This document shows positions 9,298-25,700 of a stretch of 27,338 bases of DNA, piece after piece. A program made the position numbers and the translations under genes. Location of the stretch: positions 1-27,338 of IMG/VR virus record IMGVR_UViG_3300025849_000173. One strand, written 5' to 3'. Below the pieces are notes generated by a model. The model searched no databases and was not told the DNA's origin. It saw only the letters and a program-made list of their open reading frames with translations. Numbering within the stretch: position 1 is the stretch's first letter; the number at the start of each line of letters is the position of its first letter. The stretch comes from a virus.

Positions 9298-9518
9298 TAA
9301 ATTAAAGGTGATGTTTTGACGATCTCTGGTAATACCTCCAGACATTCTTTCTTTGTAGAGTACAAAGTGTCTAATTTTTCCGTGTTCAATTCCAGGTCCA
9401 GTGTGCCGCTTATGATCTCCCACACCAGTGTTCCACTAATAAATTCAGAAACGTTCCGTACCTCAATTATATGGCCGTCACAGTTTGTCTGATAAAGTCC
9501 TTTGCTAATTTTTGTCAT
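9297..9518 (-). CDS. Hypothetical protein (73 aa), first gene of the leftward run
   Basis: I place the start at 9518 rather than at the far ATG at 9572, because AAAACGAGAGATC directly precedes it and matches the leader at 9232, and because the longer form would run through the promoter-like region and the DnaA-box-like dyad end. The product begins MTKISKGLYQTNCDGHIIEV and looks beta-rich. No family is recognised. It is divergent from the DnaA domain IV gene, so both are probably controlled from 9519-9681. Confidence 0.65.
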   Translation of the reverse strand: MTKISKGLYQTNCDGHIIEVRNVSEFISGTLVWEIISGTLDLELNTEKLDTLYSTKKECLEVLPEIVKTSPLI

Positions 9519-9541
9519 GATCTCTCTCGTTTTATTATACT

Positions 9542-9572
9542 GCAATTTAAGAAACGCCTGGGACATATACAA
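9542..9572 (-). promoter_or_regulatory. Possible leftward promoter
   Basis: Minus strand TTG (complement of 9570-9572), 20 bases, then TAAATTGC (9549-9542) partly fits TTG-N17-23-TAnnTTTG. It is placed well for the 73-residue gene, but the -7 box has two mismatches. Confidence 0.3.
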
Positions 9573-9575
9573 CCT

Positions 9576-9597
9576 TTTTCCACAAAAATGTGAAAAT
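9576..9597. promoter_or_regulatory. Inverted pair of DnaA-box-like 9-mers
   Basis: TTTTCCACA at 9576-9584 fits the DnaA-box consensus TTWTNCACA at every position. The complement of 9589-9597, ATTTTCACA, fits at 8 of 9. They face each other across four A residues, forming a dyad in the divergent intergenic region. A third near match, TTGTACACA, lies at 9637-9645. Binding has not been shown. Confidence 0.55.
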
Positions 9598-9621
9598 AAT
9601 CTGCGTTCACTCTTTAAACCT

Positions 9622-9629
9622 TATATTTC
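9622..9629 (+). promoter_or_regulatory. Possible rightward promoter -7 box
   Basis: TATATTTC differs from TAnnTTTG only in the last base and lies about 50 bases before the DnaA-like gene. The -33 match (TCTG at 9600-9603) is weak. Confidence 0.25.
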
Positions 9630-9681
9630 TTGGGCGTTGTACACATTATTGTTAACTTCGCTCTTCCTAAATTTCATGCAC

Positions 9682-10140
9682 ATGAACAAAATACAAGTCA
9701 ACAAGCTGATTGACAAGGTCAACGAATATTTCAGCGTAGACATGAGAGATAAGACCAGAAAACGTGATGTCATTGACATACGCCACACCTTCATGTACTC
9801 ACTGCGAAATAGAGGTTATAAGACTGCGGAGATCGGTGGATTCCTGGACAAGGATCACGCAACTGTTATACACGCTTCCAGGAAGGTAAGAGACTTGATT
9901 TTAGTTGAAAGAGATATGTCACGCCTGGTAGCTGCAATGGATGAAGTTATAGACAGCTACATACTTGAAGAGAAGATATACAGCAGAGGAGGCAATGTAG
10001 ACAACTACGAATCAGTCAGGGTAAACTTGTGCCGGGTACTTGAGAAGTTTTGTGATAGTGAAGAAGAGCGGGCGCACTGGCTGTCGAAATCTCACATATC
10101 AATTGACGAGTACAAGAGCTTTACTTCTCGTTTTTTGTAG
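9682..10140 (+). CDS. DnaA domain IV-like DNA-binding protein (no ATPase domain)
   Basis: The 152-residue product, starting at ATG 9682 (9676 is an alternative), is the only rightward gene. Residues about 25-72 match the C-terminal DNA-binding domain of DnaA: RDVIDIRHTFMYSLRNRGYK, then TAEIGGFLDKDHATVIHA, with the DHATVIHA signature that contacts the DnaA box. There are no AAA+ or domain I/II segments. The remaining 80 residues are helical and unrecognised. It could bind an origin, compete with host DnaA, or act as a repressor. It starts about 85 bases from the DnaA-box-like dyad at 9576-9597. Its last 20 bases overlap a convergent small gene. Confidence 0.85.
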   Translation: MNKIQVNKLIDKVNEYFSVDMRDKTRKRDVIDIRHTFMYSLRNRGYKTAEIGGFLDKDHATVIHASRKVRDLILVERDMSRLVAAMDEVIDSYILEEKIYSRGGNVDNYESVRVNLCRVLEKFCDSEEERAHWLSKSHISIDEYKSFTSRFL

Positions 10141-10237
10141 ATCCCTTACAACATTTACTACCGCACTCAACCGGTGCATATTCGCACCACTTGCCTTTAG
10201 AGTTGGTATTTTGTAATGCTTTGTTTTTCTTACGCAT
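10121..10237 (-). CDS. Small Cys-rich protein (38 aa)
   Basis: ATG at 10237 overlaps the stop of the spanin-like gene by 8 bases and opens a 38-residue frame: a basic start MRKKNKALQNTNSKGK, then WCEYAPVECGSKCCKG with four cysteines in a C-x6-C-x3-CC pattern. The spacing suggests a tiny zinc knuckle or a disulfide-bonded peptide. The frame ends inside the 3' end of the rightward DnaA-like gene (20-base convergent overlap). Coupling to the operon supports translation. Confidence 0.5.
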   Translation of the reverse strand: MRKKNKALQNTNSKGKWCEYAPVECGSKCCKGSTKNEK

Positions 10238-10661
10238 CAAAGAATTTATCAGCTGCTCGTTGAATAAACTTAAAACCTATAAAAGCTACAACCAGGTATA
10301 ACGCCCAGGTCTGTAGTTTTTGTTTTAATGTCTTTTGCTGAACGTACACAACTTTCTCGTATGGGACTTCAATAGTTCTAATTATGGTGTCAGAAGCGCA
10401 TTCAGCTTCTATTGCGATAGTATCAAATGATCTAACAATTTTAACCGTGAGCTTGTCTTTGGTTATTGTTATGGTGTCACGCTGTTTTAGCGTTATTGTA
10501 TCATGGATTGCAACCGGAGCAGTTACAAAGGTGTCCACTACAGTTAGCGTGTCTTTCTCCAGGATCAATGGATCTTTTTTGATCGCTGTCTTTAGATGCC
10601 ATTGCGCGCTGCATGAAGTTAATAATAGCGTGAGTAAGCTTGTCTTGATTAACCATTTCAT
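10230..10661 (-). CDS. Probable unimolecular spanin (lipoprotein with a C-terminal membrane helix)
   Basis: The 143-residue product starts with a lipoprotein signal, MKWLIKTSLLTLLLTSC, with lipobox LTSC (C17). A beta-prone middle follows, with repeated DTI/DTL strands (about 36-110), then a C-terminal membrane helix ALYLVVAFIGFKFI (about 120-133). Outer-membrane lipid anchor plus inner-membrane helix plus an extended beta-rich periplasmic part is the topology of u-spanins such as T1 gp11, which fuse inner and outer membranes at the last step of lysis. It lies at the end of an operon with endolysin- and holin-like genes. The fit is topological; there is no sequence signature for this class. 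Confidence 0.6.
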   Translation of the reverse strand: MKWLIKTSLLTLLLTSCSAQWHLKTAIKKDPLILEKDTLTVVDTFVTAPVAIHDTITLKQRDTITITKDKLTVKIVRSFDTIAIEAECASDTIIRTIEVPYEKVVYVQQKTLKQKLQTWALYLVVAFIGFKFIQRAADKFFDA

Positions 10662-10669
10662 TTTTAATA

Positions 10670-11236
10670 TTATTCTTTATCTGTTGCGTATTTCACACCC
10701 ATAATAGTACCTACGATACTAAAGGCATTCGTAAGTAATATACCAAACATATTAGACCAGGTGCTTCCGATTATCTGGGTATCTACTCCAGAGAATATTG
10801 CCCAACCATACATTAATGTTGTAAGTATTCCTACGCCAATAATTACATATAAAGCAACTCTTACTATTGTACTGATTAGCTCAAACTGTGTCTTCTTTTG
10901 CATCAGATCCAAATCGCCTAATGCTTCATCACGTAAGGCTTCTGCTTCTTTCTTTGCAGATTGAGTTTGCTCCAGTGAATTTTGCAACTCCAAGACTAAC
11001 GCACCACGTTCTATTGCTGCTTGCTCTAACTCCTGGTTTTGTTTTTGAACTTGCTTTGTTATGTCCAAACGTTTGCGCCTAGATGCTAAATCCCTTCGCT
11101 TACATTCTTTTATATACTCTTTTACATCAGCATCAGTAGATTCAGACAACAGCTTTATAAAGTTTCCTTCGATGTAAACTTTTTTAGATCGTGCCTTTAA
11201 TATTGCTTGCTTTACTGTGTCTTTAGAGCTAATCAC
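10670..11236 (-). CDS. Coiled-coil membrane protein with two C-terminal helices
   Basis: The 188-residue product starts at GTG 11236, overlapping the upstream stop (GTGATTAG). It has a basic N-terminal part, a long coiled coil (about 58-115, VQKQNQELEQAAIERG onward) and two membrane helices at about 121-147 and 162-181. I do not recognise a named family. Position between the two-component genes and the spanin-like gene suggests a cell-envelope or lysis role, for example a holin-like or regulatory membrane protein, but no direct evidence supports that. Confidence 0.7.
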   Translation of the reverse strand: MISSKDTVKQAILKARSKKVYIEGNFIKLLSESTDADVKEYIKECKRRDLASRRKRLDITKQVQKQNQELEQAAIERGALVLELQNSLEQTQSAKKEAEALRDEALGDLDLMQKKTQFELISTIVRVALYVIIGVGILTTLMYGWAIFSGVDTQIIGSTWSNMFGILLTNAFSIVGTIMGVKYATDKE

Positions 11237-11390
11237 CGCAACCGTATACTCTTGTGCTATCTAAATAGCTATTATCAGGATTCCCATTGATTAGATAACC
11301 AGTCTCGTAGTCCTTTTTGTTCTTTTGGACCAGTAAACCGGCAACAGCCAGCAACAAAAAGAAAATGATTGCAACTCTAAACTCCTTCAT
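11229..11390 (-). CDS. Small single-pass membrane protein (53 aa)
   Basis: ATG at 11390 overlaps the stop of the receiver gene as TAATG. The product has an N-terminal membrane helix (VAIIFFLLLAVAGLLV, about 6-21) followed by a polar, probably periplasmic tail ending in VYGCGD. Tight coupling on both sides, with GTGATTAG at the 3' end, makes it very likely real. It may be an antiholin-like or accessory membrane peptide; function is unknown. Confidence 0.65.
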   Translation of the reverse strand: MKEFRVAIIFFLLLAVAGLLVQKNKKDYETGYLINGNPDNSYLDSTRVYGCGD

Positions 11391-11827
11391 TATCTATAAA
11401 CTTTAAATGGGTTTTTTTTATTAACGTATCCTTCGTAGTCGCTGTGGAATTCCTCAAGTCTTGGTTCAATATCGTCTGACTTGATAATCCAAAACTGTGC
11501 GCCTACAGCTTTAGCTTTTTCTATTTCTTCTTGGTCAGAGCTACTTGATATAATACCTATAACACATCCATTGCCGTAATCTGTGTTTATCTTACGTATC
11601 ATTTCAATGCCATCGAAGGAAGATCCAATAATATTTAGATCTACAAATACACATTGTGGACGTTCATGATCTGGATCATCCGGAAACCATGCTTTAAATT
11701 TTTTATCAGCTTCATCCGAGCTGTCTAAAGACTCTATAGACAAAGCTATATCAAGCATTGAACAAGCATCCTCAAACACCAGGTGAAATAAGTTCTCGTC
11801 ATCTATGAGCATTAATGTATCAATCAT
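11390..11827 (-). CDS. Stand-alone response-regulator receiver (REC) protein
   Basis: The 145-residue product is a CheY-like receiver domain with no output domain. Key positions are intact: the acidic pair D9/D10 (MLIDDEN), the phospho-acceptor D63 (CVFVDLNIIGSSFDGIEMI), the Ser/Thr position in GIISSSSD (94-97) and K116 in FWIIKSDD. A short C-terminal tail (about 123-145) follows. It is coupled to the histidine kinase gene by ATGA (11824-11827), so the two form a cognate pair. Lacking a DNA-binding part, it would act by protein contact, perhaps with one of the membrane proteins in the operon. Confidence 0.88.
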   Translation of the reverse strand: MIDTLMLIDDENLFHLVFEDACSMLDIALSIESLDSSDEADKKFKAWFPDDPDHERPQCVFVDLNIIGSSFDGIEMIRKINTDYGNGCVIGIISSSSDQEEIEKAKAVGAQFWIIKSDDIEPRLEEFHSDYEGYVNKKNPFKVYR

Positions 11828-12723
11828 AATTTTATATATACTTTCGTACCGTTAGTAGTTTTTTTAGCAAACACATTGTATCCGTGTTCTTTTAATATTT
11901 CAATAGATATGTTTAAGCCTAATCCAGTTCCAGATTCTTTCTGTCCTTCTCTTCTGGTGTATGGTTTGGAAAATTCTATAAACTCTTCTGCTGTGATTCC
12001 TCTACCGTTGTCTTCTACAACAATAAAAGAACCAACATGATAGCTGCCTTCATGGTATATTTTTACCCACTTTGTTCCGCTATCATTATACTTTAACCCA
12101 TTCCTTATAAAATTATCCAGGGCGGTACAAAATAATGCCTCATTAATATCTAATGCATCTGGCAAGTTATCAGATAAGACAACTTGATTTTTATATGCTG
12201 TCAGTTTTAAATAGTTCGTCAATACATCCTTTACGTTACACGTAGCTTTGTTTAGCACTGCGTTCTCCTTCACCAGGTTCGTAAACTCGTATACACCAGC
12301 ATACACTTTCTGGGCATGGTGTAGTCCATCTTCAATAAGCTTTAAAGGTGCGCTAATCCGTAAGTCTTTAATGTTCTTATTAGTAAGCCTACGGTTTAAT
12401 GATTTTATACCTCTTGGTAAATAGGTATTGATACCGCTATGCATATCATGACGTATGATTTTAGCAGCGTGTTCCAGGTATATATTCTTTTTACCCAGAT
12501 CTTTCTTGATCTCTGCTTTGTTTTGCAAAAACTCTTGCACCACCATAAAAAACGGAGGCATAAAAGCAATTACAGATAGCCATTCAAAATAGTGAGTAAA
12601 GGTTGAGTGGTGTATGTATTTAAATACAACAAGTGTCTTGAACACAAAAAAGGTTAGCATAATCAGTGTAGAACAAATCAAGCATACTATTGATCTTCTT
12701 GATATGCCATCCAAAGCGTTCAT
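11824..12723 (-). CDS. Membrane sensor histidine kinase
   Basis: The 299-residue product has two N-terminal membrane helices (about 10-36 and 47-66) with almost no periplasmic loop. A linker and the phosphoacceptor region EHAAKIIRHDMHSGIN follow, where H92 in the HD pair is the likely site. The catalytic domain shows an N box with N208 (ALDNFIRNGLKYN), G1 box DNGRGI (238-243) and G2 box GTGLGLNIS (265-273). All boxes look functional. With only a short loop between helices, sensing is probably within the membrane or through partner proteins. It overlaps the upstream DUF2892-like gene as TAATG and the receiver gene as ATGA. Phage-borne histidine kinases are rare. Confidence 0.9.
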   Translation of the reverse strand: MNALDGISRRSIVCLICSTLIMLTFFVFKTLVVFKYIHHSTFTHYFEWLSVIAFMPPFFMVVQEFLQNKAEIKKDLGKKNIYLEHAAKIIRHDMHSGINTYLPRGIKSLNRRLTNKNIKDLRISAPLKLIEDGLHHAQKVYAGVYEFTNLVKENAVLNKATCNVKDVLTNYLKLTAYKNQVVLSDNLPDALDINEALFCTALDNFIRNGLKYNDSGTKWVKIYHEGSYHVGSFIVVEDNGRGITAEEFIEFSKPYTRREGQKESGTGLGLNISIEILKEHGYNVFAKKTTNGTKVYIKL

Positions 12724-12914
12724 TACAGTTCTGTCTTGCGGAATCCTATTTTTTCAAACAACCACATTGAAGGACATTTGCGAGTCCATGCTCCAAAGAT
12801 TAGCATAAAGGCAACAAAAACAATTAGGCCCATCCAATCATTAGCAACACCAATAATTAAAAGCAATGCAATCAATGCATATACTGCTCTTACTGAAGTA
12901 ATCTTATTCATCAT
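12723..12914 (-). CDS. Small membrane protein, DUF2892/YgaP-like
   Basis: The 63-residue product has two membrane helices (YALIALLLIIGVANDW and GLIVFVAFMLIFGAW) followed by RKCPSMWLFEKIGF. This pattern of two helices, a GWxGL-like link and a CPxxxLxxxIG end matches the DUF2892 family, whose best known member is the membrane part of YgaP. Function in phages is unknown. Its stop overlaps the kinase start (TAATG) and its start overlaps the previous gene by 11 bases. It may work with the kinase in the membrane. Confidence 0.7.
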   Translation of the reverse strand: MMNKITSVRAVYALIALLLIIGVANDWMGLIVFVAFMLIFGAWTRKCPSMWLFEKIGFRKTEL

Positions 12915-13065
12915 TCTTTTCTTTTTGCAGCATATACCAGCGTTGAGCTGTATACCCTATCGATATTAGTAACAGTGCGATCTTTAAACCAACTTCTACT
13001 GTAGCCATGGATACTCCAAAGCTGAAAAAATTTACAAACAATAGTTTTAAATCTGTCTCGTTCAT
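12904..13065 (-). CDS. Small phage membrane protein (53 aa)
   Basis: ATG at 13065 overlaps the stop of the holin-like gene (ATGA). The 53-residue product has an N-terminal amphipathic stretch (ETDLKLLFVNFFSFGVSMAT) and one strong helix (GLKIALLLISIGYTA) followed by a basic tail. The FVNFFSFGVS...VEVGLKIALLL.SIGYT pattern is familiar from small proteins next to lysis genes in phages of Bacteroidota. A different frame at 12911-13099 is longer but has poor composition and is rejected. Confidence 0.7.
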   Translation of the reverse strand: MNETDLKLLFVNFFSFGVSMATVEVGLKIALLLISIGYTAQRWYMLQKEKNDE

Positions 13066-13286
13066 TGTTTAGCAAACTTCTCCAGGCCAGCAATCCCAAA
13101 CGAACCCAAGGTTATATATACAAAACTGTTGTATGTAAACTCATTAATAGGTAAATCCTTACCTATAGCACCAGTAACAACGTCAGCGATCATTACCAAA
13201 ATCATAACAGCAAAACTCAAGAATCCAATAATAGTCTTCTCGTTCCAGGTGTTATCTATTTTAAATATCTCAAAAAACTTTTTCAT
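13062..13286 (-). CDS. Holin-like small membrane protein (74 aa)
   Basis: The 74-residue product has a basic, amphipathic start (MKKFFEIFKIDNTWNEK), a strong helix GFLSFAVMILVMIADVVTGA (about 21-40) and a second weaker helix near the C-terminus (VYITLGSFGIAGLEKF). Two helices, small size and position after the DUF5675 gene suit a holin or an antiholin; this is positional inference. The start lies four bases after an exact TATCTTTG box. If that box is used, the mRNA would be nearly leaderless for this gene. Confidence 0.6.
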   Translation of the reverse strand: MKKFFEIFKIDNTWNEKTIIGFLSFAVMILVMIADVVTGAIGKDLPINEFTYNSFVYITLGSFGIAGLEKFAKQ

Positions 13287-13290
13287 AGGT

Positions 13291-13320
13291 CAAAGATAAG
13301 GGTTATATCAAAGGTCAAAA
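13291..13320 (-). promoter_or_regulatory. Candidate Bacteroidota promoter before the holin-like gene
   Basis: Minus strand TTTTG (13320-13316), 17 bases, then TATCTTTG (13298-13291) matches TTTG-N17-23-TAnnTTTG exactly. It ends only four bases before the ATG, implying a leaderless transcript or use by genes further on. Confidence 0.45.
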
Positions 13321-13760
13321 TCAGTGTAAGTAATCTCCACATCCTCGCCAGATTCCAGTGCAGCAGCAATGCCGGGATACACCCTCTTGTAAGCATCAAC
13401 AGAACTTCCAATAAAACCTTTGTAGTCCGAGCTGTTCCCTACCAACAAACATCCACTGGTGTGTTCATCAGTGTTACCGGTGTGGATCAGGATGTACTCA
13501 AAGCCTGGAACGTCACGTACCCATAGCATTCCCTTGTGCATACTACCGTACTTCTTTTCGTATCGACCGTGAAAGCCGCCTACAGTACGTAGTGTGATCT
13601 TGTAAGTACCAGCTGGGATTCTGGTTTCGTGCATTACCTTTTCTTCTCTGTACTCATCTTCCAATGTGTAACAGAGGAACTTGCGCCCCTCCGTTACATC
13701 AAGCAACATACCTAAAGTATAATCATCGGAAGTGTGGTATCTAATTACCTCTAATTTCAT
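13308..13760 (-). CDS. DUF5675 protein, probable cell-wall (endolysin-like) enzyme
   Basis: The 150-residue product fits DUF5675: FLCYTLEDEYRE near the start, ETRIPAGTYKITLRTVGGFH, then GFEYILIHTGNTDEHTSGCLLVG (about 87-109). The H-x-G-N ... S-x-GC pattern is reminiscent of the YkuD L,D-transpeptidase active site, with the Cys of SGCLLVG as a possible nucleophile. DUF5675 is common in Bacteroidota and their phages, often near lysis genes. An enzyme activity is not proven. It overlaps the giant gene as ATGA and leads the lysis-type run. Confidence 0.72.
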   Translation of the reverse strand: MKLEVIRYHTSDDYTLGMLLDVTEGRKFLCYTLEDEYREEKVMHETRIPAGTYKITLRTVGGFHGRYEKKYGSMHKGMLWVRDVPGFEYILIHTGNTDEHTSGCLLVGNSSDYKGFIGSSVDAYKRVYPGIAAALESGEDVEITYTDFDL

Positions 13761-16700
13761 TCTTCACTTTCTTTTAGTTGTTCTTTTAATCCTTTAGCTC
13801 CTTCAACTGTAAGCTTCAAGAACTCTTTATACCATTCGTTTTTCAACTTAACAGATCCAAATATAGGATCACGTGAAACAACGTACTGCATCTTGCGTGT
13901 GTCTGCGATTACGCCCTGGATCAGCTCTACCTTACGATCGTCTTGCGCTTCAGCGTAACTGTCAGTAGCCATTAGACTCTCAACGTTCTTGGTTAGATCC
14001 TGGTAATACATCTTTTGGATTCTGGTTAAATCCTTTTCTTCAAAGCGCATCTTAACCTTCTCGCCCGGTCCGAGCATCGATACAATCTCATTGTATGTTT
14101 CAGAACCCAAGTCTGTTTTTGTAGGACTGTAGTAATAGCTTGTGATCTTGCTTGGCGCAGAAGGTAGCCATGATCCATCTCCGGTGGCTGTCATCAATCT
14201 GTGGTACTCACGGATTACTGGATGAGGATCTACCTCTTGACCTTTCAGAACACTAAACATATGGTAGTAGTATGGGTTCTTTCCTTCAGGTGTTTGTAGG
14301 ATGTCTCGCCCTACCATGTCTACTCTGGATGGGTAACCTTCCACGTTAAAGGTCTTGTCTAAAAGGATGTACTGCATTCTTCTGGCAATATCCTTGTTAC
14401 GGAATATAGGCATATGACTACGGTTAGCACGGTTAAAAGCACTGATTGTGTTTGGCAGTGCTACACTGGTTACTGATCTAAACCAGTTATCAATGTTTCT
14501 TTGCATTTCGTAGCCTTCTTCATCACCAGCGATCAAGCTTAACAAGCTGTTCGCACCTTGCAAGAAGCTCATAGAGTTGATGAACTTAAATGTACCGGTC
14601 ATCATAGCTGGGTTAAAGTAGTTGATCATAAACTGCGTATCAAACAAGCTGTCCTCACCTGGAGCGTACCAAATGTTCTTCTTGCTCTTCGCTGTATGAT
14701 CTAAACCTTTAGTTGCTGTAGCTCTTGCGCCCATCACAACACCAATAATACCAGACTTATCAATCTTCATCCAGTTATCTCCTTCCTGGAATTGTAGATC
14801 TTCTTCATTGAAAGACAATAGGTATCTACGGATAGCTGTTTGGTTTACACGCATTGGACCACCAGTGTATGCGTACTGCAATGACTTTTCTTCTTTGTCC
14901 TCATCAGTGAATGCACCAATGATAGCACCAGCAGCAATTAACAGATCGGCAGCCTTAATCATCATTGTACCTACGATAGCCATAGAAAGATCTTCGTTAC
15001 CTTTCTTGTGGTTGCCCTGGCTGTAATTATACATTGCTGACATAGCCCCAACACCAGGCATAGCAATCTTCATTGTAGAAACAAATATGTTTGCTGGTGT
15101 CTTAACGTATGGCATAAACGAGTCAAACAAGAAGCCCATCATTCTTCCAGGAATAGTTCCCTTTCCTTCTACAATTTTTCTAAACTGTAGGATTGCATTA
15201 GAAGCTGTGTTCTTCTCTTGGAATGTAGCACGTTGACCTTCACGAGACATCTTTGTTACGACATCTTGAGGTGGGTATTTCAAGAAGTTTTGGAACTCAT
15301 CAGTATCAATTGCAGCTCTACCAAATCTCTTGATCGCCTCATTGTATACTACGAATGCACCAGAGAACCTACTGAACGGTAAATCACCCACTGCTAATGC
15401 ACGGAATACGATGTCCGGTGCAATACCAAACATACCCTCGATCATAAGCTTCACTCTGTCTCCAGGCTTAACCTTACCTTCTTTGGTTCGTGGTAACACA
15501 TCAGTGTTAATCAGATCCATCTTAAATACCTTCTTCAAGTAATCACCCAGTCTGGTATCTGATACTGCGGCAAACATTGCAAACATTGGATTGATACCGG
15601 TGTGTACAATCTTTTGCGTTTCGCCTTGCTTAACAAACATACCTTTAATAGATTCTGCGAATCCTAATGCACCTTGCTTCATAGCGTATGGCAATGCAAG
15701 TAGTGTTACACCAGCCTCACGACCGTAGTATTCTTTAACACCAACATCTTTGCCCAGGTATTTAGATACCAGTCTACTTGCTTTGAAAGACAAGAAGTGT
15801 ATAGCTCCTTCTATAGGGCGTTGGATTATAAATCTACCTTGCTCAAATATGTTTGCTACAACGTTAGTGACTAATGATACCGGAGTCATAAGGTTACCCT
15901 TGATGAATGTACCAAATAGGTTGCTGTATCTTTTAGGAATCAGAGTAGCTGTAATCTTGTTTAGTGTTCTGGTTACGTTATCCAGAGCTTTAGACAGCTT
16001 GGTAAACTCTTTTGTGAACTCCGCAGAATCCATAGTCCCAAAGTTAGCCTGGTGATCTATGAGCGCACGCTGTGCATCCATAAACTCCTGGGCAATCTTC
16101 ATGAGGTTCTGGCGTTGAGCATCTGTCATTCTACGTCCAGCTTTACCCATAGCAGACTCAATCATTTGCACGATACCAATTGGTGTGCTTGTTTTGAGTT
16201 CAGCAAAGTGGCGCAGCATACGACCAACTGTTGTACCAACTTTAGCAAGAGCTTCAATAGCATCGGCAGTGTCCTCACCGTTGGCTTGCATTCTGTTTAT
16301 GCGCTCAATAGCAGCAAGTACATAGATGTTGTCGTTACCGTTCTCTGGGTTCAAGCTCAAGTTAACCAGGGCATTGTCCGTCATGATCATGATTAGATCT
16401 TCATCAGACATCTCTTCCAGGTTACCTTTAATTGCTTCCAGGTTCTGTTGGTTGATGTAGTTCTTTGGGTTGTCAAAGATCTTCTTGCGAACATCAGCTT
16501 CACTATCACCTAACGAGTTGGCAAAGCGTTGCGCTGTTCTACGCATATTTAGTGTTTGATCGTCCAGAATGTTGTGGCTTTCATGACCGCTTTCATCAAT
16601 ACTAAACTGCAATCCGCTTTCCATCACCTGGTTATGCGTAGCTTCAATTTTAGCTGGGTCTGTAGTTACCCTGGTTGGCACTACGAATCCTTCTACACCT

Positions 16701-19700
16701 ATACCAGGCACAGTGTGTAGATCCCAGGCTGTTTCTGCATACTCTATTTTACCACGAGCATAAGCACGATCACCAATAAGGGTTACCTCTTCAGCAAACT
16801 TGATTGGTCTACCGGTAACATCCATAAACATATGTGATGCCATTGGATTGTACTTGATCATTACACCGTCAAAGTTTGTGTTCTCTCTTGGTGTATCTAC
16901 ATACTCACCATCTACAGAAGCAAGTGGGAACTTGTTCTTTGCAGTTGGGTACAGTTCTTTTATTTGCTTTGGATCTAACTTCTTGACAAAACGGTTATGC
17001 AGCATTGCACCAACCTCTGACGATCCCTTCACATTTACGTTGAAGTAAGCGTTACGCAGTGTCATCACATCTACGTTTCTAACCACCTTCTCACGAGCAA
17101 AAGTAGTCACACCGTTGTGTTCCTGGTACTTCTTGCCTTTTTGGTTAGATGGCTTGTGAACAGATAGAATAGACATTCTGTATCCATACTTCTTTTGTCC
17201 AGCATCAAGAAGGTTAAGGTTTAAACGGCCACCAACTAAATCGCCTGGATTCAATGGAGCATTCTCATCTAATATCTTCTTACCAGCTTTATGCCCCTGG
17301 ATCACATCGTTTATCTCATCAATGTTTGGTAAATCAATGTCACGTTCACGATACAATGGACTTTGCTCTGCTTGCATCTCTGTAACAGCCAGTGATTCCT
17401 GGATAGACATTGCACCCTCCATTGATTCTTCTGCTACCTCTTCTAATGTGAATTGAGCAAAACTACCATAGCCTGGCATTTCCCCAGTGTCAGAACCAGA
17501 TTTGTACAAACCACCAGGTTCAATATGAACTACATCTAAAAGGTTAACGCTTTGTGCATCAAGACCTTCATAAGAAGCTATAGCTACAGCTTTTAATGCT
17601 GGCTTATCGTTACCGAATAAAATGATGTTGTTTCCGTACTTACCAACTGTGCGCTCAATCATCAATCCAATATCTTCAGCGGAAGCAGCAGCATCAAGAA
17701 CGGCTATACGAGTGATTTCGTTTGCCTGGTTCATTACAATATAACCAAGCTTTGTCGTGTCACTAACCTTAAAATGAGATAAGAATTTTGGTACATAATT
17801 TGAACCTCTTATCTGAAGTTTATCCGCTGTTCTTGGTCTAAAGAGTTCTTGACGGTTAAAGTTCTGTACTTTAACATTCTTGAAGCCAGTTTGCTTTTCA
17901 TACTTCTGTAGTGTGGTAAAATCAGATTGGAATGTATAAAAAGACCCTATTTGACCTTTGTCAAATTCCACATATTTACCAGAGTCAAGGTTGATGATAA
18001 CACTGTTACCAACTTTTACATTAGGCTCTTTGTTGAATATCTCTAAAAGCTTTTTGTGCATTTGAAGATCAGCTGGTGAAGCTTTTAAGCTGCCCGAAGG
18101 ATGATTATGTACAAGTGTTACTTCCGCATCAACATCAACACCGTATGTCTCTTGGAAATTGGTAACAATCTGTCTTACTTTCAAAGGATCTACCGAAGCA
18201 CTATTAACAGTACCGGTAGTCATATAAGTGACATCGTAGTTTTTTGGATTGTTTCTATCACGAACCACCAAGAATGTACTCTCTGAAGACTCACTCTCCA
18301 TATGGCGAAGCAAGAATGCAATATCCCCTGGATGTTTAATCACCTTTGGACCTTCCAATTCCATTACTGGGTTTTCATTCATTCTACGCTCCAGGTAAGT
18401 TTTAGCTTGTACAACGTGTGGTTGCATCGAGCTGTACTCAACATCACCTAATCTACTCCCTAATGAGTAATTGTTGAACTCCTCATCCAGGTGGAAGAAA
18501 GTGCTTGTTACTTCTTGCCCGGCACGGACTTGGTTGATTGCTTTTCTGACCCCTTCGAGGTCAGCTTCTTGATTTGCTGTGCCAAAGCTTTCATTTCCTT
18601 TTGCGATAGATTGTCTAACAGACTCATGTCTGAAGTCGAGTTGTTCAATTGCATTGTCTATGTCTTTTTGTTTAATTCCTTTTTCTCTTGCCACCTCGCT
18701 TGCACCGCTAAAGTAGTCTGGTTTTTCCTCTTCGCTTGTAAAGTCTTTCGCAGAGCTTATTGAGTTTTTAGCCTGGAACGTTTGATACAAGGCTTTCTCT
18801 GGATACCAGTTTACAGCCTGGAGATCAGCAATTGTAATACTGATACCATACTTGCTAAACAATCTGTTTTGAAGATCTTTGAAAACAGTTTCCATGAACA
18901 CACGCTCCGTACCAGTTGAAGGTGCTTCTTTCTCACCCTTTAGATTCTTAACGTGGTTTCTCGCTGCTTTTCTTAATTCATTAAGCTGTGGTGTTGACTG
19001 TAATACAGCAAGGCGATCTTTATTAGCTGTAGCTGAAGCAACCTTGCGAGATAACTGATCTATGTCTAAATCAGATGCATTCTTTTTAAGGTCAAATGCC
19101 GGGTTAAACAGCTCGTCTATAAAGTATGGCTTCTTGCGTGACTTCATTGCGCCAAGCTTCTTGCGATCACTTTTGCGTAGCTTTGTAAGAGCTTTTATAA
19201 ATCGCTCTTCACCTGATTTTGTAAGAGCTTCACTTCTTGCAATAAGAAGATCACCACGCAAACGACCAAACTGTCTTGTCAACCAACGGTCAATAGTCAG
19301 TGTCTGGAACTCACCCATCAGGTTCATAAAGAAACCATTACCAATCTTTGGGCCAAAAATAGCAGCACCAAACAACATATGATCAACTGGATATTGAGGG
19401 CTTAAGTTTTGTTTCTGTTTCTTCTCCTTACCAGTCTCTTCATCAATAACAGTAATAGTAGCGGACATATCTCCGTTACGAACCGGAGTAACCAGGAACT
19501 CAACAAAGTTCTCAATGCTCATTATATCTAAAGCCTCATTGATAAATGCAAAAGCATTGGACATAGATCCTCCTTGCGCCCCTTCAACCAGCTCTGGATT
19601 GAACTTGCCGTTCTCACGGAAGTATTCGTATTGTTTTATAGCCAGTGCAAAGTTTTGTTTGACCTTCAATCCGTTTGAAGAAATAGCAACAGCCATCTTC

Positions 19701-22700
19701 ATGATCGCAGCAAGATCTTTATCCGCTTTGATCTCTGGGTATATCAACTCAACTACGGTCATCGCTTTTGTAACCGTCTCATCGTACCAGCCAATCGCAT
19801 CTGGATAGGCTTTCATTGCAACTAACGTTTCAAGCTCAAATGCATCTGTCAAATAATTCATCAGTGCCTGATCCATTGCATAGTGCATCAATCCATCTGG
19901 ACCTTTTTGCAAAGTAAGACCGTACTTATTAATAATTTCATCACGCCTTGGGTCTTCGTGAAGCATTTTTGTCAAAGCTTCTTTAAACTCAACGTTTGTT
20001 GGGATCGCTGCTTGATCTGCAAACGATAGCGCATTGATGATAGTGATAGGGTTCTCCTTGGTCACATCTGGCACATCAGCAGCAAAGTCTGTGTCCAGGG
20101 TAAACGAAGTAGCGTTACCATCTTCAAAGAATTTTTTAGTCTTGTCTGTAACAGAGAAACCAAGAGCCTGGAAAGCACCGCTGGTAGGATCAGCGAAACG
20201 GTTGAAGATCTCAATTGGCTTAACTTTATTTTTGTTGTCAAACCTCTTAATTTGTTTTTGAGTAATTCCAGGCAACACATCATCATAGAATTTTGCTGGA
20301 CCCTCACCGCTTCTGCCCCATCTTCTTTTTTGGAAGTATCCTGGAACCCATGCGACATAATCAAATCCACCTTTAGCACCCAGTTGCGCTGCAACACGCA
20401 TACTCATGCCAGCCCAGTCATCCGTTCTGTTTCCGTATGGAGTGTAAGGCATTAGCGGAACACCGCTTTGATCATCTGCTATTTTGTTAATTAAAGTATC
20501 TACTTCTTTAGCTGATAAGTTAGATACCTCTTTGTGGAAAGTAGAATCAAACGTTAACTCTATATCTTCTAAAACAGTTTCTGAACTACGGTAAGTCATG
20601 TCAGGGTTAAAATCAGTGTCATAGTCACGGATGTTAATACCTAAAGAAGGAAGAGCTTCTGACAAAACAGAAACCATTTGTTCTCTTGTTCTGTGTAGAT
20701 CTTTTAAATTTTGCTTACCATTTACAATGCGCTCTCTGGTTATGATCCTTTGGTCATATGTTTCAGGAGTAATCTTTTTAATAACTTCTTGGTACTCTTT
20801 AAATGCTGTAGTTATTTTGTCTGTTTTTTCCAGGTCAAGATTATCTTGTAAAACACTATGCACTCTACGATTAAGAGCCGAATCTAAATCTTCATTAAAA
20901 CGTGATCCAACATAATATTCTACATCTACTACGTTTATAAAATCTCTACCATTAAATAAATTTCTGTCGTTTTTTCCTACAGCTTCATTTATTGCTGAAA
21001 TCTCCGTTGGAGAATTTCCATAACGCTTATCTATAATTTCGGCTGTAAGACTTAATACATCTTCGGAATTTCGAGAAATACCAACAGTTTCTGCCACATC
21101 CATATATGTAACAAGTCCCGATGAAAAAGCTGTAGTATTATCACGATAGCTTAATAACTTTTTGGTAAGGAAGGCAAGGTTATTATTAAAAAATATTCTT
21201 TCTGATTCTTGTTTAATTCTTGGTCGTAAAGAAGTAATCGTATTATCTATTTCGTCAAAATATTTTTCATGTTTTGATCGTGTTTCTAAATACGCTTTAT
21301 TTACACCAGACTTTTTGTAAAAATCGTACAAAATCTGATTAGTATATTCGTTTGATTTTCTTACCTCCTCGGAAGCGAGCTTCAAACCTACCACAAAAAC
21401 CTCTAATGGATTATTAACAATATAATCATTTAGATCGTCTGCATACTTCGCCCAAGAGTCCTTACTGTCTTTTTCGTTCAACTCAATATTAGTTGCCCTT
21501 TCAGAGAAATTATTTAGTAATTGAGTTACAGTGAAATTTCTTGGCTCTACAACGTGTTTCACAGCCTCGTCAAGAGGTCTTTGAAACATCTGGTACTCAT
21601 GATTTAGATCAACCAGCTTTTTATTGTCCGATTGTAGTGGATTCGCAGACATCCCTTCTTTTCTTGCACTCTGACCCCAATCAGACTGAACCTCATCTAA
21701 CAACAAAACACGACCGCCATCCGCTGCTGTTGCTTCTGCTGACCTTATGAATGAAATAACGTTTGCATTAGAAAAATGCGTGTTGTTTCTAAATGTTTCT
21801 GTTTGCTTTAAGAAACCTTCTGGGTGTTGAATAAGAATCTCGCTGTAGTTTGTACCAGCTACACCAGCGGCTGTACGTGATTTTTCTGAAGCAATGCTAT
21901 ACATTTTATGACGGCCCAGTCCACTTGTTTCTGGTGAAATTCTTGCAAGTGACATAGCCTCGGCTCTCGTAAGTCCAGTACCGACATTAATTAACAGTGA
22001 ATTGCTTTTTACTACAACATCTTGTGGGTCTGGCTCATCATTGTCTTCTATACGCTGTGACTGATATTCATATACAGCATCAAATCTGTCTCTTGGATTA
22101 ATAGAATTTAACTCATTGTACTCTATTATTGGAATAATTTCATCCTCAAGGGAATCATAATTATCATCGTCATAAGCTTCTTCTATAGCATTTAAAACAA
22201 AATCATCAATATTGTCATCAAAAATATCTTTCAAGTCAATAGACATATAGGCGTAAAGCTCATCGCCATCAGGCATATCAACTGTTCCTAAAACCTCTAT
22301 CATATAATTTCCATCGTCAAAAGATTCGCCACGCGTAATACCCATTACCTCCTCTATTTTCATTGGATAAGAATGAGTGCCGTCAAACTCTAATTCATCT
22401 GGAGCAAGGCGTAATGTAGGAGTTGTTAAAGCCGGGTCTGTTGCTACCGGTCCTAATGTATTAGGAATAACAACTACACCGTTTTTAGGATCGTAGTAAG
22501 CCTCTGCCCACCGCAACATACCTAAAGGCGCATCAACAGAAACCTCAATTGCATTGTCTTTAACGTAATTCTGGATAGCGGCAAAAGGGATACTCTTTGC
22601 CCCTGGATTGTCTAAAATATATTGCTCTAAAAAACCACGGAGATTGATAGTTTCTGCCTCAACAGACCCACCTTTAACTTGAGAAAAATACTTCATCCAC

Positions 22701-25700
22701 TGATCTATTGAAGCAGATTTCATTTTTAACGTTTCCGGGTTTAATGACTTCATCAAAGCTGAATCCAAAAACAGCTTTTCAGTGATCATATCTGATTGCG
22801 GCTGTAATGGCAATAACTTTCCAAGATTACTTACTTGATCGTTAAACGTTTGTTGAGCAACCTGATCAAAGAAATAATAGTCTGTGATCTCAATAGTAGG
22901 ATCGAGCTTTTTATGAGTTTTATACATCTCAAAATGAGCAATACTACGATCATTTACATAGGCCGGATCAAGACCCATGGTTATTGACATCAGTGAAGAT
23001 CCATCATCTTGAGTAACGCCAGTAAGTCTAAAAAGTTCATCATAGTTATCAATCCCTCCAAGGTTAAACCCAGAACGATTAACAACATCTACTAATGATT
23101 TTAGTATTGGATAATTACTTATTCTTAAATCTTCTGGTAATTCGTGATCTTGTTTGGTTCGGTGACGGTAAAGAACATCACTAAACAATTGTCTTGGATA
23201 AGATCGAAAAGGAACTAACGAGCTTTTATCATATCTTTTGAAAGCAGCTTCTGTGAATGCAGCAATTTCTTTACGGTAAGCTTCAACCGTTTGACGTATA
23301 TTAGGTTCTTTGGCATTTTCCTCAACAGCCAATACTTCTTTAGCAATTATAAGTTTATCAAGCTGTTCTTGTAAAATACCATATGCAGTAGAGGCATTGT
23401 CAAGAGCGTTTCTACCTAAATCATATACGAAATTTACATCCGCATAAAGAGGTGAAGCATCACCGTCATTTAATTTTGCCACTTTATTAAGCTTTGCTAA
23501 TAAAGTATTCATTTTGTCTACCTTAAAGACCGGCATAGTAGATTCAATAATCCTTAATTGGTAGGCGAGCTGACGGCTGTGGTATTTTGCAGCATCGACT
23601 ATTTTTACCGAAATACTATTTCTTAAATCTTCTTTTTCTGCACTTGTAATTGGTGGCTCTCGGTCATATCTAACTGCTGAATAATACTCATTTTGTAGAT
23701 CCTCAATAGTCTGGTCAAGAAGATCTTCTCTGGTTTTATTTTCAGTCTTTAGATCGTTTGCTTTTTGTACAGACAGTGAGCTGCTTAAGAATCCCATAGA
23801 TTGGCTTAAAGCATTGGCAGCTATATCGTTCAGTCCTAATGTTTCTTGATCGTTAAAACTGGTCAAGTTTTTATCTATTGCATCGCCAACATCCTTAATA
23901 CCGGCTAAAGATAGTATTTGGTCTACACGATCTTGATCTGTGGTGTTAGGATCATATTCATCGGCAATAAGTGTAAACACAATATCATCAATGCTGTTTT
24001 CAGTATCGATGTCCGCAGCCAAAGGAACTGGTGCTTCGGTAGTGGTAGGTGCAGTTTTTGCACGTTTAGCTTTAGCCTTTGCAACGTCAGCTTGTTGTAT
24101 GTCACGACCAAACTGTACCGTAGAACCTAAACGCATTGCATCAGATAAGTTCTTTGCAACAGTAAACAGATCGGCATCGTCCTGGATCTTAATATCAGTG
24201 TATCCAGAACTTATTAAAAAATCATTGATCAGGTTCTTGATGCGATCCAACAGCTTTGGTGTATCACGTCTTAATGATTCCAGGTTGTTACCACGAGTCA
24301 TCAACGCCAGGAATTCAGTAAGTGTTTCGTTCCTACGAGTGTTCTCGTCAAAGCCTTTCTCGTCAGTGTACTTCTCTGAAAACTTCAAAGCCTCACGAGC
24401 AAACACATTGCCAGCCGCAGCTTCTTTTTCAATCTCTGCAAACAAACGCTCTTGCGCTAACGGATCTGTCGTTAGCATCTCACTGATTGCAGTGTGCAAT
24501 ACTTCGTGAGCATATGTCTTACCAGCTGAACGATCTGTTCCAGCGTGCTGGTTGTATAGTCTAAAAGCTTGTGGCGAAAGAACGTGAATAGTCTTCTTGC
24601 CTCCCTTTTCTGTCTTTACATAAGCAACACCTCTGGTCTTACCTTTTGACTCACGGAACAGTTTACGAGCCTGGCTATCAGAGTTCATCAACGAACGTAG
24701 CGAGTTGTGTACCACAACCTTTGCTTTGCCCTTACCTTTTACGATACCAAAGATTCTTGACATTGCACTGGCTTCACTCTTGGTGATTCCATTCTCTGCC
24801 TTTACTTGACCGTCCTCGTATTCTACTGAATCGTTAAGTTCTTCAGTGTACTCTTCGTTGATTTTAATATTCTTTGGACTATGCTCTTGAGCAGTAATAG
24901 CTCTACCAGCATACTCTTCTTCCATCACATTTTTATCCTTGATTAAGTCACGGATAACGTTGAGCTGGTTCTTCTTTGCATCTGCATCTGATAGTGAATA
25001 GTAAGAGTTCAATGCAGTACTCATATCCTTATGGATCTGGCGCATTGTTTCTTGTGCTTCTTTAGGCATCGCAGCGTAAATAGGCATAGATGCAGCAGCA
25101 ATATTTCTTTGTTTCTGACCAAGCTCAACAATACGATCTGTTATCTTTTGGCGATCGTACTCGCTCATGTTGTCCTTAAGCTTTGCATTCAAGCTTTGGA
25201 TTTCATCGCTTACATTCTTAAACTCCTTCATGTTGGCAATGGATGCCATACCGTTCATTCCAGAAGCCAACATCTGTGGTACAGCTACAGTACCGCCACC
25301 CATAATACCACCAATGATAAAGCTCTCTAATACATCACGAGGATCTGTAACTTCACCAGAAATCATATAAGCTAATACACCGTTAGTCAGCTCAACACCA
25401 ACTTCCTCTAAACCTTCTGATAAGAACTGCTCACCAGTCTGTACAAATGGGCGCATTTTAGATTGCTTGCGTAATTCTTTTAATGCTTTAGTGCGTGCTG
25501 TTTTCTTTGCTCCAGCACCAGCAGCATCAATAGCTTCGTCTATACCCAGGGCTTTACGAGCTAAACGAATATCCGTCATAGTGATTTTCTCAAACAAATA
25601 TTCAGAAGCAGCGGACACAACAGTAGTAGTTACCTTGTCAGCAACGGTCATGTCCAATCTGTTACGCACATCCATGTAGGATGCCGTACCAGCAGAAACA

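Follow-up and report, generated by a model that had tools for sequence, protein, structure and literature searches.

A virus-borne two-component module with a putative membrane effector

A membrane histidine kinase (HK), a stand-alone receiver (RR) and a coiled-coil membrane protein, cc188, constitute a virus-borne family of bacterial-style signalling circuits. The three genes were met in a single virus record of 27,338 bases, here called the window, and recur as one unit in other viral contigs. To judge by its sequence features the module is a two-component system; the novelty would lie in its being viral and in its apparently dedicated membrane effector. On this evidence some phages may monitor the infected cell through their own phosphorelay, the effect of which would fall on the membrane and not on transcription.

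An invariant three-gene core

The relatives of the window were merged into a set of 165 non-redundant loci. In 148 of these all three genes are present, without exception on the same strand, ordered HK-RR-cc188 and with median gaps of about 0 bases. The incomplete loci are mostly due to contig-end cuts, the exceptions being L152 and L158, which are devoid of a recognised HK, and the chromosomal locus L051, which is devoid of cc188. When grouped by single linkage at 75% HK identity, the loci fall into 32 lineages. RR and cc188 accompany the kinase in nearly all of them; the next most widespread neighbour family is found in 9. In L128 (3144-3866), and also in L118 and L119, a GIY-YIG/NUMOD3 homing-endonuclease-like gene lies between HK and RR, an insertion that the linkage has survived.

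All three genes are under strong purifying selection. Relative to the closest relative, dN/dS is 0.014 for RR, 0.047 for HK and 0.063 for cc188, with synonymous sites near saturation.

The operon in the window

In the window the module belongs to a tight series of minus-strand genes that runs from a 4348-aa ORF down to a 143-aa lipoprotein. The former, a single ORF (13757-26803) covering nearly half of the record, is likely a giant phage protein of the polyvalent type. In the ORF listing all junctions from 13062/13065 through 11229/11236 overlap, by 1-11 bases each, and HK and RR are coupled through an ATGA at 11824-11827, both as originally predicted. Promoter and terminator signals are at chance level.

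The kinase and receiver had also been placed between a block of holin-like, DUF5675 and DUF2892-like genes and a probable u-spanin. These genes are indeed there, but their lytic character is only partly borne out. The DUF5675 protein (13308-13760, minus strand, like all genes of the series) matches PF18925 (E 8.6e-28) and phrog_1501, a family of unknown function (E 1.7e-30); it is a putative lysis-associated enzyme whose gene adjoins the module in 6 relatives. A kinship with the 200-aa endolysin-like protein of other loci was considered on account of a similar H...GC motif; profile comparison gave it a probability of 1.7%. Next comes a 74-aa protein with two membrane helices (13062-13286), the family of which is common to 43 loci. 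It is holin-like by size and context only, and no holin family among the Pfam and PHROG models matched it. The adjacent 53-aa transmembrane (TM) protein (12904-13065), with relatives in L002 (62%) and L003 (52%), is weakly holin-like, its best holin score being E 0.13 for phrog_920. A small YgaP-like, DUF2892-type TM protein (12723-12914; PF11127 E 2.3e-5, just under the cut-off) directly precedes the kinase; proteins of this type are frequent accessories upstream of HK and are found in 83 of the 164 loci with the module.

At the other end, the u-spanin assignment of the 143-aa lipoprotein (10230-10661) has in its favour a lipobox, LTSC, and a C-terminal hydrophobic segment. The ORF matches no family, and the 48 loci of the first round contain no homologue at E 1e-3. 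Between RR and cc188 lies a 53-aa single-TM protein (11229-11390) common to 8 loci. The window version has a plain TM anchor, and its relatives are short lipoproteins of 47-53 aa with a lipobox (e.g. L067:3247-3390).

The histidine kinase and its inputs

HK (11824-12723, 299 aa) consists of two TM segments separated by a short outer loop, a DHp region with H92 and a HATPase domain (HATPase_c E 9.9e-14). The H, N, G1 and G2 boxes are intact, as had been claimed from the sequence: H92, N204/N208, D238-G242 and G265-G269 are present, and H92, N208, D238, G240 and G242 are kept in 147 of 148 HK relatives. The H-box region matches none of the HisKA models of Pfam. The HK alignment A1 comprises 28 sequences.

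Hydropathy peaks of the window HK lie near residues 15 and 48. By the same measure only, 125 of the 148 HKs have two N-terminal TMs, joined by a loop whose median length is 11 aa. On hydropathy, the window HK has the hallmarks of an intramembrane-sensing kinase, i.e. two TMs, a linker of less than 25 aa and no extracytoplasmic domain.

The sensor part is exchanged among HKs while the DHp-HATPase portion and RR are kept. HK lengths range from about 280 to more than 700 aa across loci, and the longer ones tested contain PAS domains, their number varying from none to three among the HKs. Accessory neighbours vary too, being YgaP-like proteins, YceI (E 9.5e-45) or, where two HKs are present, a secreted coiled-coil protein that separates them. 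Because PAS content varies and the accessory neighbours are of an envelope or lipid type, the inputs of HK appear to differ from phage to phage. In L106, L118, L119, L131 and L132 an extra HK of the same family and then a secreted coiled-coil protein precede the HK-RR-cc188 set, an arrangement in which two inputs would seem to converge on one receiver. In L178 (2217-2747) and its relatives, which represent several lineages, a YceI-family protein, possibly an isoprenoid or lipid binder, is found beside or inside the module.

The stand-alone receiver

RR (11390-11827, 145 aa) matches Response_reg (E 1.8e-7) and, as had been noted, has no output domain. D9, D10, the phospho-acceptor D63, S94 and K116 are all present in the window, in line with the original prediction. 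Among 148 relatives the three aspartates are found in 148, S94 in 147 and K116 in 146, the remainder being gaps. Strands and helices of the RR model follow the order typical of receivers, and the model matches LiaR, CheY and Rcp1-type receivers. The pair thus displays the sequence criteria of a two-component system: the HK histidine with the N, G1 and G2 boxes and, in RR, the acidic pair, the phospho-Asp, the Ser/Thr, the Lys and the receiver fold.

RR is also highly conserved, with a mean column identity of 88% (alignment A2). Contacts with host proteins could be another cause of this conservation.

cc188, the candidate effector

cc188 (10670-11236) follows RR in all 148 three-gene loci. A small N-terminal domain is succeeded by a long coiled coil that runs into TM1, which forms a hairpin with TM2. 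The structural model (pLDDT 81) has helices at 5-17, 25-30, 36-149 and 154-186. Complete phage copies have two TMs in 145 cases and three predicted TMs in 2. TM2 is nearly invariant at W160, N162, G165-N170, F172-I174, G176-K182 and A184.

cc188 does not match holin families, the score of Phage_holin_9 (E 0.12) being below the cut-off. It does match phrog_1544, of unknown function, at E 2.8e-4. The proposal that it is a known holin or has a known fold was rejected, the sole significant viral structural relative being an uncharacterised phage protein of 48% identity. When a hairpin profile was run across all loci, it recovered only cc188 copies. The defence models of PADLOC gave weak scores only, E 0.0026 for Csm2 (in the coiled-coil part) and E>0.03 for the rest, and NCBIfam offered nothing specific.

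A domain swap in a bacterial chromosome offers the best clue to the role of cc188. In L050, a Bacteroidetes chromosomal contig (5709-9090), a three-PAS HK is followed by RR and then by a 349-aa protein. The first ~110 aa of this protein match the cc188 profile (E 5.9e-21), covering the N-domain and coiled coil, and its C-terminal part matches HisKA (E 1.5e-5, just under the cut-off) and HATPase_c (E 5e-20). Thus, the N-domain and coiled coil of cc188 are joined to a second kinase in L050 and to a TM hairpin in phages. Since the output is exchanged behind a conserved input domain, the simplest reading is that the N-domain would serve as the docking site of the receiver. cc188 is probably the dedicated target of RR, a contact that would rest on the synteny and this one chromosomal fusion. 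Another chromosomal locus, L051 (7700-11100, in a 967-kb Bacteroidetes contig), has multi-PAS kinase ORFs and the same RR, with no cc188 anywhere in that genome. The synteny and the fusion nevertheless render much stronger the earlier idea that the coiled-coil membrane protein might be the partner of the receiver. A signal that would end in protein contact rather than in transcription, as had been expected for a receiver of this type, is likewise supported.

Viral distribution

The window HK, as query in an initial scan of viral contigs, returned 48 loci of 58-90% identity. An alignment-based HK scan detected at least 547 viral stretches encoding HK relatives, and a scan with the cc188 N-domain 387. 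In 84,980 cell genomes the HK alignment recovered four loci, one of them weak. The claim that a phage carries a complete two-component system is upheld, and the system is both under selection and viral in provenance. RR has no close relative in 394 other Bacteroidota genomes, and the cc188 N-domain was found in none of 395 genomes of the phylum and 395 of the class, the source genome excepted. Cultured phages (INPHARED, 50,697 records) yielded no relative of HK (E 1e-5), RR (E 0.01) or cc188 (E 1), and a search of them with a divergent HK gave generic kinase matches only. A terminase-like match below E 1e-29 is present in 13 of 50 long viral records, which is supporting only because the model also fires in most control bacteria. 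In a tree drawn without an outgroup, the two cellular copies group beside the phage contigs L130 and L141.

Linkage to lysis genes

Membership in a lysis operon was the more specific part of the original prediction and is partly supported. Linkage to lysis genes is seen in the clade of the window and, as an enrichment, overall, but operon membership is not supported as a general property of the module. The 46 loci with 4 kb of flank on either side were inspected for members of the Amidase_2 (with PG_binding), GH19, Peptidase_M15, DUF5675, Phage_holin_4_1-like and 74-aa membrane families. Such a gene is found within 4 kb in 28 of the 46 loci, a count in which the DUF5675 and 74-aa families figure as putative lysis proteins, and is absent in 18. 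In the window's clade 22 of 29 full-flank loci have such a gene nearby, all on the same strand, whereas the other clades have one within 4 kb in 6 of 17, and a large second lineage has its lysis enzyme mostly on the opposite strand. The linkage to lysis genes is tight in the window's clade and loose outside it.

To avoid the bias of families picked near the module, 50 whole records were searched with the Amidase_2 and GH19 models of Pfam. Such a gene lies within 5 kb of RR in 15 of the 28 records with a match, compared with 3.2 expected from random placement (P<=5e-5, an optimistic value as the records are not independent). The nearest one is 10-73 kb away in 11 of the 28, and many modules adjoin nrdA/nrdB, PhoH or glycosyltransferase genes instead. 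The lysis linkage is real but does not define the module.

These data bear on the original hypothesis that the thing controlled is the timing of lysis. The kinase would report membrane state or superinfection, and cc188 would gate or restrain the holin of the operon, as a lysis clock or in lysis inhibition. The same-strand lysis genes of the window's clade, the overlapping junctions in the window, the enrichment of endolysins and the recurrence beside one module of lysis genes of unrelated kinds (Amidase_2, GH19, M15, DUF5675 and Phage_holin_4_1-like) all speak for it. The scarcity of such genes in other clades, the opposite-strand lineage, the distant enzymes and the alternative neighbours weigh against it. 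We propose the lysis purpose only tentatively and regard it as somewhat doubtful.

A proposed mechanism and other readings

We propose that HK, which has the build of an intramembrane-sensing kinase, would sense membrane or redox state via its membrane part or PAS domains, autophosphorylate on H92 and hand the phosphoryl group on to D63 of RR. The receiver, in its phosphorylated or its unphosphorylated form, would bind the N-terminal domain of cc188. Binding would alter the cytoplasmic coiled coil, which is continuous with the TM hairpin, such that the inner membrane or a partner within it switches state. In the window's clade the switch would probably govern the onset of lysis; elsewhere it may have a different role at the membrane, e.g. 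superinfection exclusion. An HK-RR-cc188 circuit as such seems likely to us. The whole explanation, a phosphorelay that would act through cc188 on the membrane and here may tune lysis, we also favour, if less firmly, and can do so because the membrane outcome is left open.

It may be, more broadly, that phages have evolved a widespread, virus-specific phosphorelay class with a receiver target of its own, in which the catalytic half of a receiver-controlled kinase is replaced by a TM hairpin, the signal then acting directly on the inner membrane without transcription. Lysis, exclusion or permeability are the membrane effects envisaged by this reading, on which we are nearly evenly divided, with a slight inclination against.

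A role in superinfection exclusion or in protection of the envelope has also been considered. Here, disturbance of the envelope would be sensed and the inner membrane altered to block injection by a second phage. The intramembrane-sensing architecture of HK fits this scheme, as do a membrane effector with an almost invariant TM2, the YgaP-like and YceI accessory proteins and the presence of the module in phages where lysis genes do not adjoin it. However, similarity to known exclusion or defence proteins is confined to the chance-level coiled-coil matches with PADLOC, and we deem such a role unlikely. Alternatively, the module may rewire host signalling, the phage HK or RR swapping phosphate with host kinases, receivers or a membrane protein, and cc188 acting as a scaffold. 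The very low divergence of RR would suggest several partners, and the cellular relatives are Bacteroidetes. Yet a complete HK-RR pair of the phage is in every case accompanied by a cc188, so that host parts are not obviously needed, and this scheme strikes us as improbable. Finally, a host two-component system recently captured as a moron without phage function might be imagined from the richness of Bacteroidota in such systems and from the homologues in L050 and L051, but it is contradicted by the distribution of the module across viral and cell genomes, the lack of close RR relatives in 394 other Bacteroidota genomes and the strong purifying selection between phages at near-saturated synonymous sites, and is rejected as extremely improbable.

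Should the phosphorelay acting through cc188 be real, its occurrence across hundreds of phage contigs, where sensors vary and the membrane effector stays constant, would make it a general viral signalling device. The cc188 hairpin would represent a new kind of two-component output, and phosphorylation-based tuning of lysis or of membrane state to cell physiology would become testable in lytic phages.

Relation to known systems

On the usual view, phages gauge the condition of the cell by means of transcription factors, antiholins or peptide systems. In T4 lysis inhibition, the RI and RIII antiholins time lysis in answer to envelope and superinfection cues; to our knowledge no phosphorelay takes part. 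The module may have the same purpose, lysis timing, and bears no sequence relation to it.

Among canonical two-component systems, CheA-CheY and DivK-DivL/CckA have single-domain receivers that act by protein contact. The phage module resembles them in combining an HK with a stand-alone receiver that would work through such contact, and L050, with its kinase bearing a cc188 N-domain behind the receiver, calls to mind the action of DivK on the kinases DivL/CckA. The module differs from them in that its putative target is a membrane hairpin protein, in being viral and in that its three genes form one invariant unit.

The intramembrane-sensing kinases SaeS, LiaS and BceS have two TM helices, a linker of less than 25 aa and a small N-terminal part, and need accessory membrane components (PMC4388633). 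The window HK shares the two helices, short linker and small N-terminal part. Unlike these systems, its H-box escapes the HisKA models of Pfam, its receiver has no DNA-binding domain, many of its relatives add PAS domains and it is carried by phages.

Phage histidine kinases as such are already known. The agrBDC genes of phage phiCDHM1 include an HK (agrC) and no response regulator (PMC6127314), whereas the module invariably has a receiver as well as a putative effector. Pelagiphages have an HK together with curli (T8SS) genes, no paired receiver being described (PMC9599517). These marine phages share with the module an HK that has conserved neighbours, which are curli genes there and cc188 here. 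Receiver-like cRec domains of jumbo phages reportedly never occur alongside histidine kinases and are tied to NAD/ADPr enzymes, and T4 rIIA is presented as a GHKL ATPase that has a variable C-terminal domain and no receiver partner (PMC7824862). The presence of GHKL ATPase or receiver-like folds in phages is thus common to these proteins and the module, but only the latter pairs an HK with an RR. The arrangement with receiver and cc188 is absent from the papers found. In the literature searched, outside which most subscription papers fall, complete phage two-component systems are hardly described, and we found neither a phage-encoded HK-RR system tied to lysis nor a description of the module.

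Other genes near the module

A 212-aa ORF on the plus strand of the window (9502-10140) contains the C-terminal helix-turn-helix domain of DnaA (PF08299 E 5.2e-12) and may encode a replication or regulatory protein. In L126, L129, L178, L189 and other large freshwater viral contigs, a full-length DnaK is encoded within a few kb of the module; that of L189 matches Hsp70 at E 6.5e-259.
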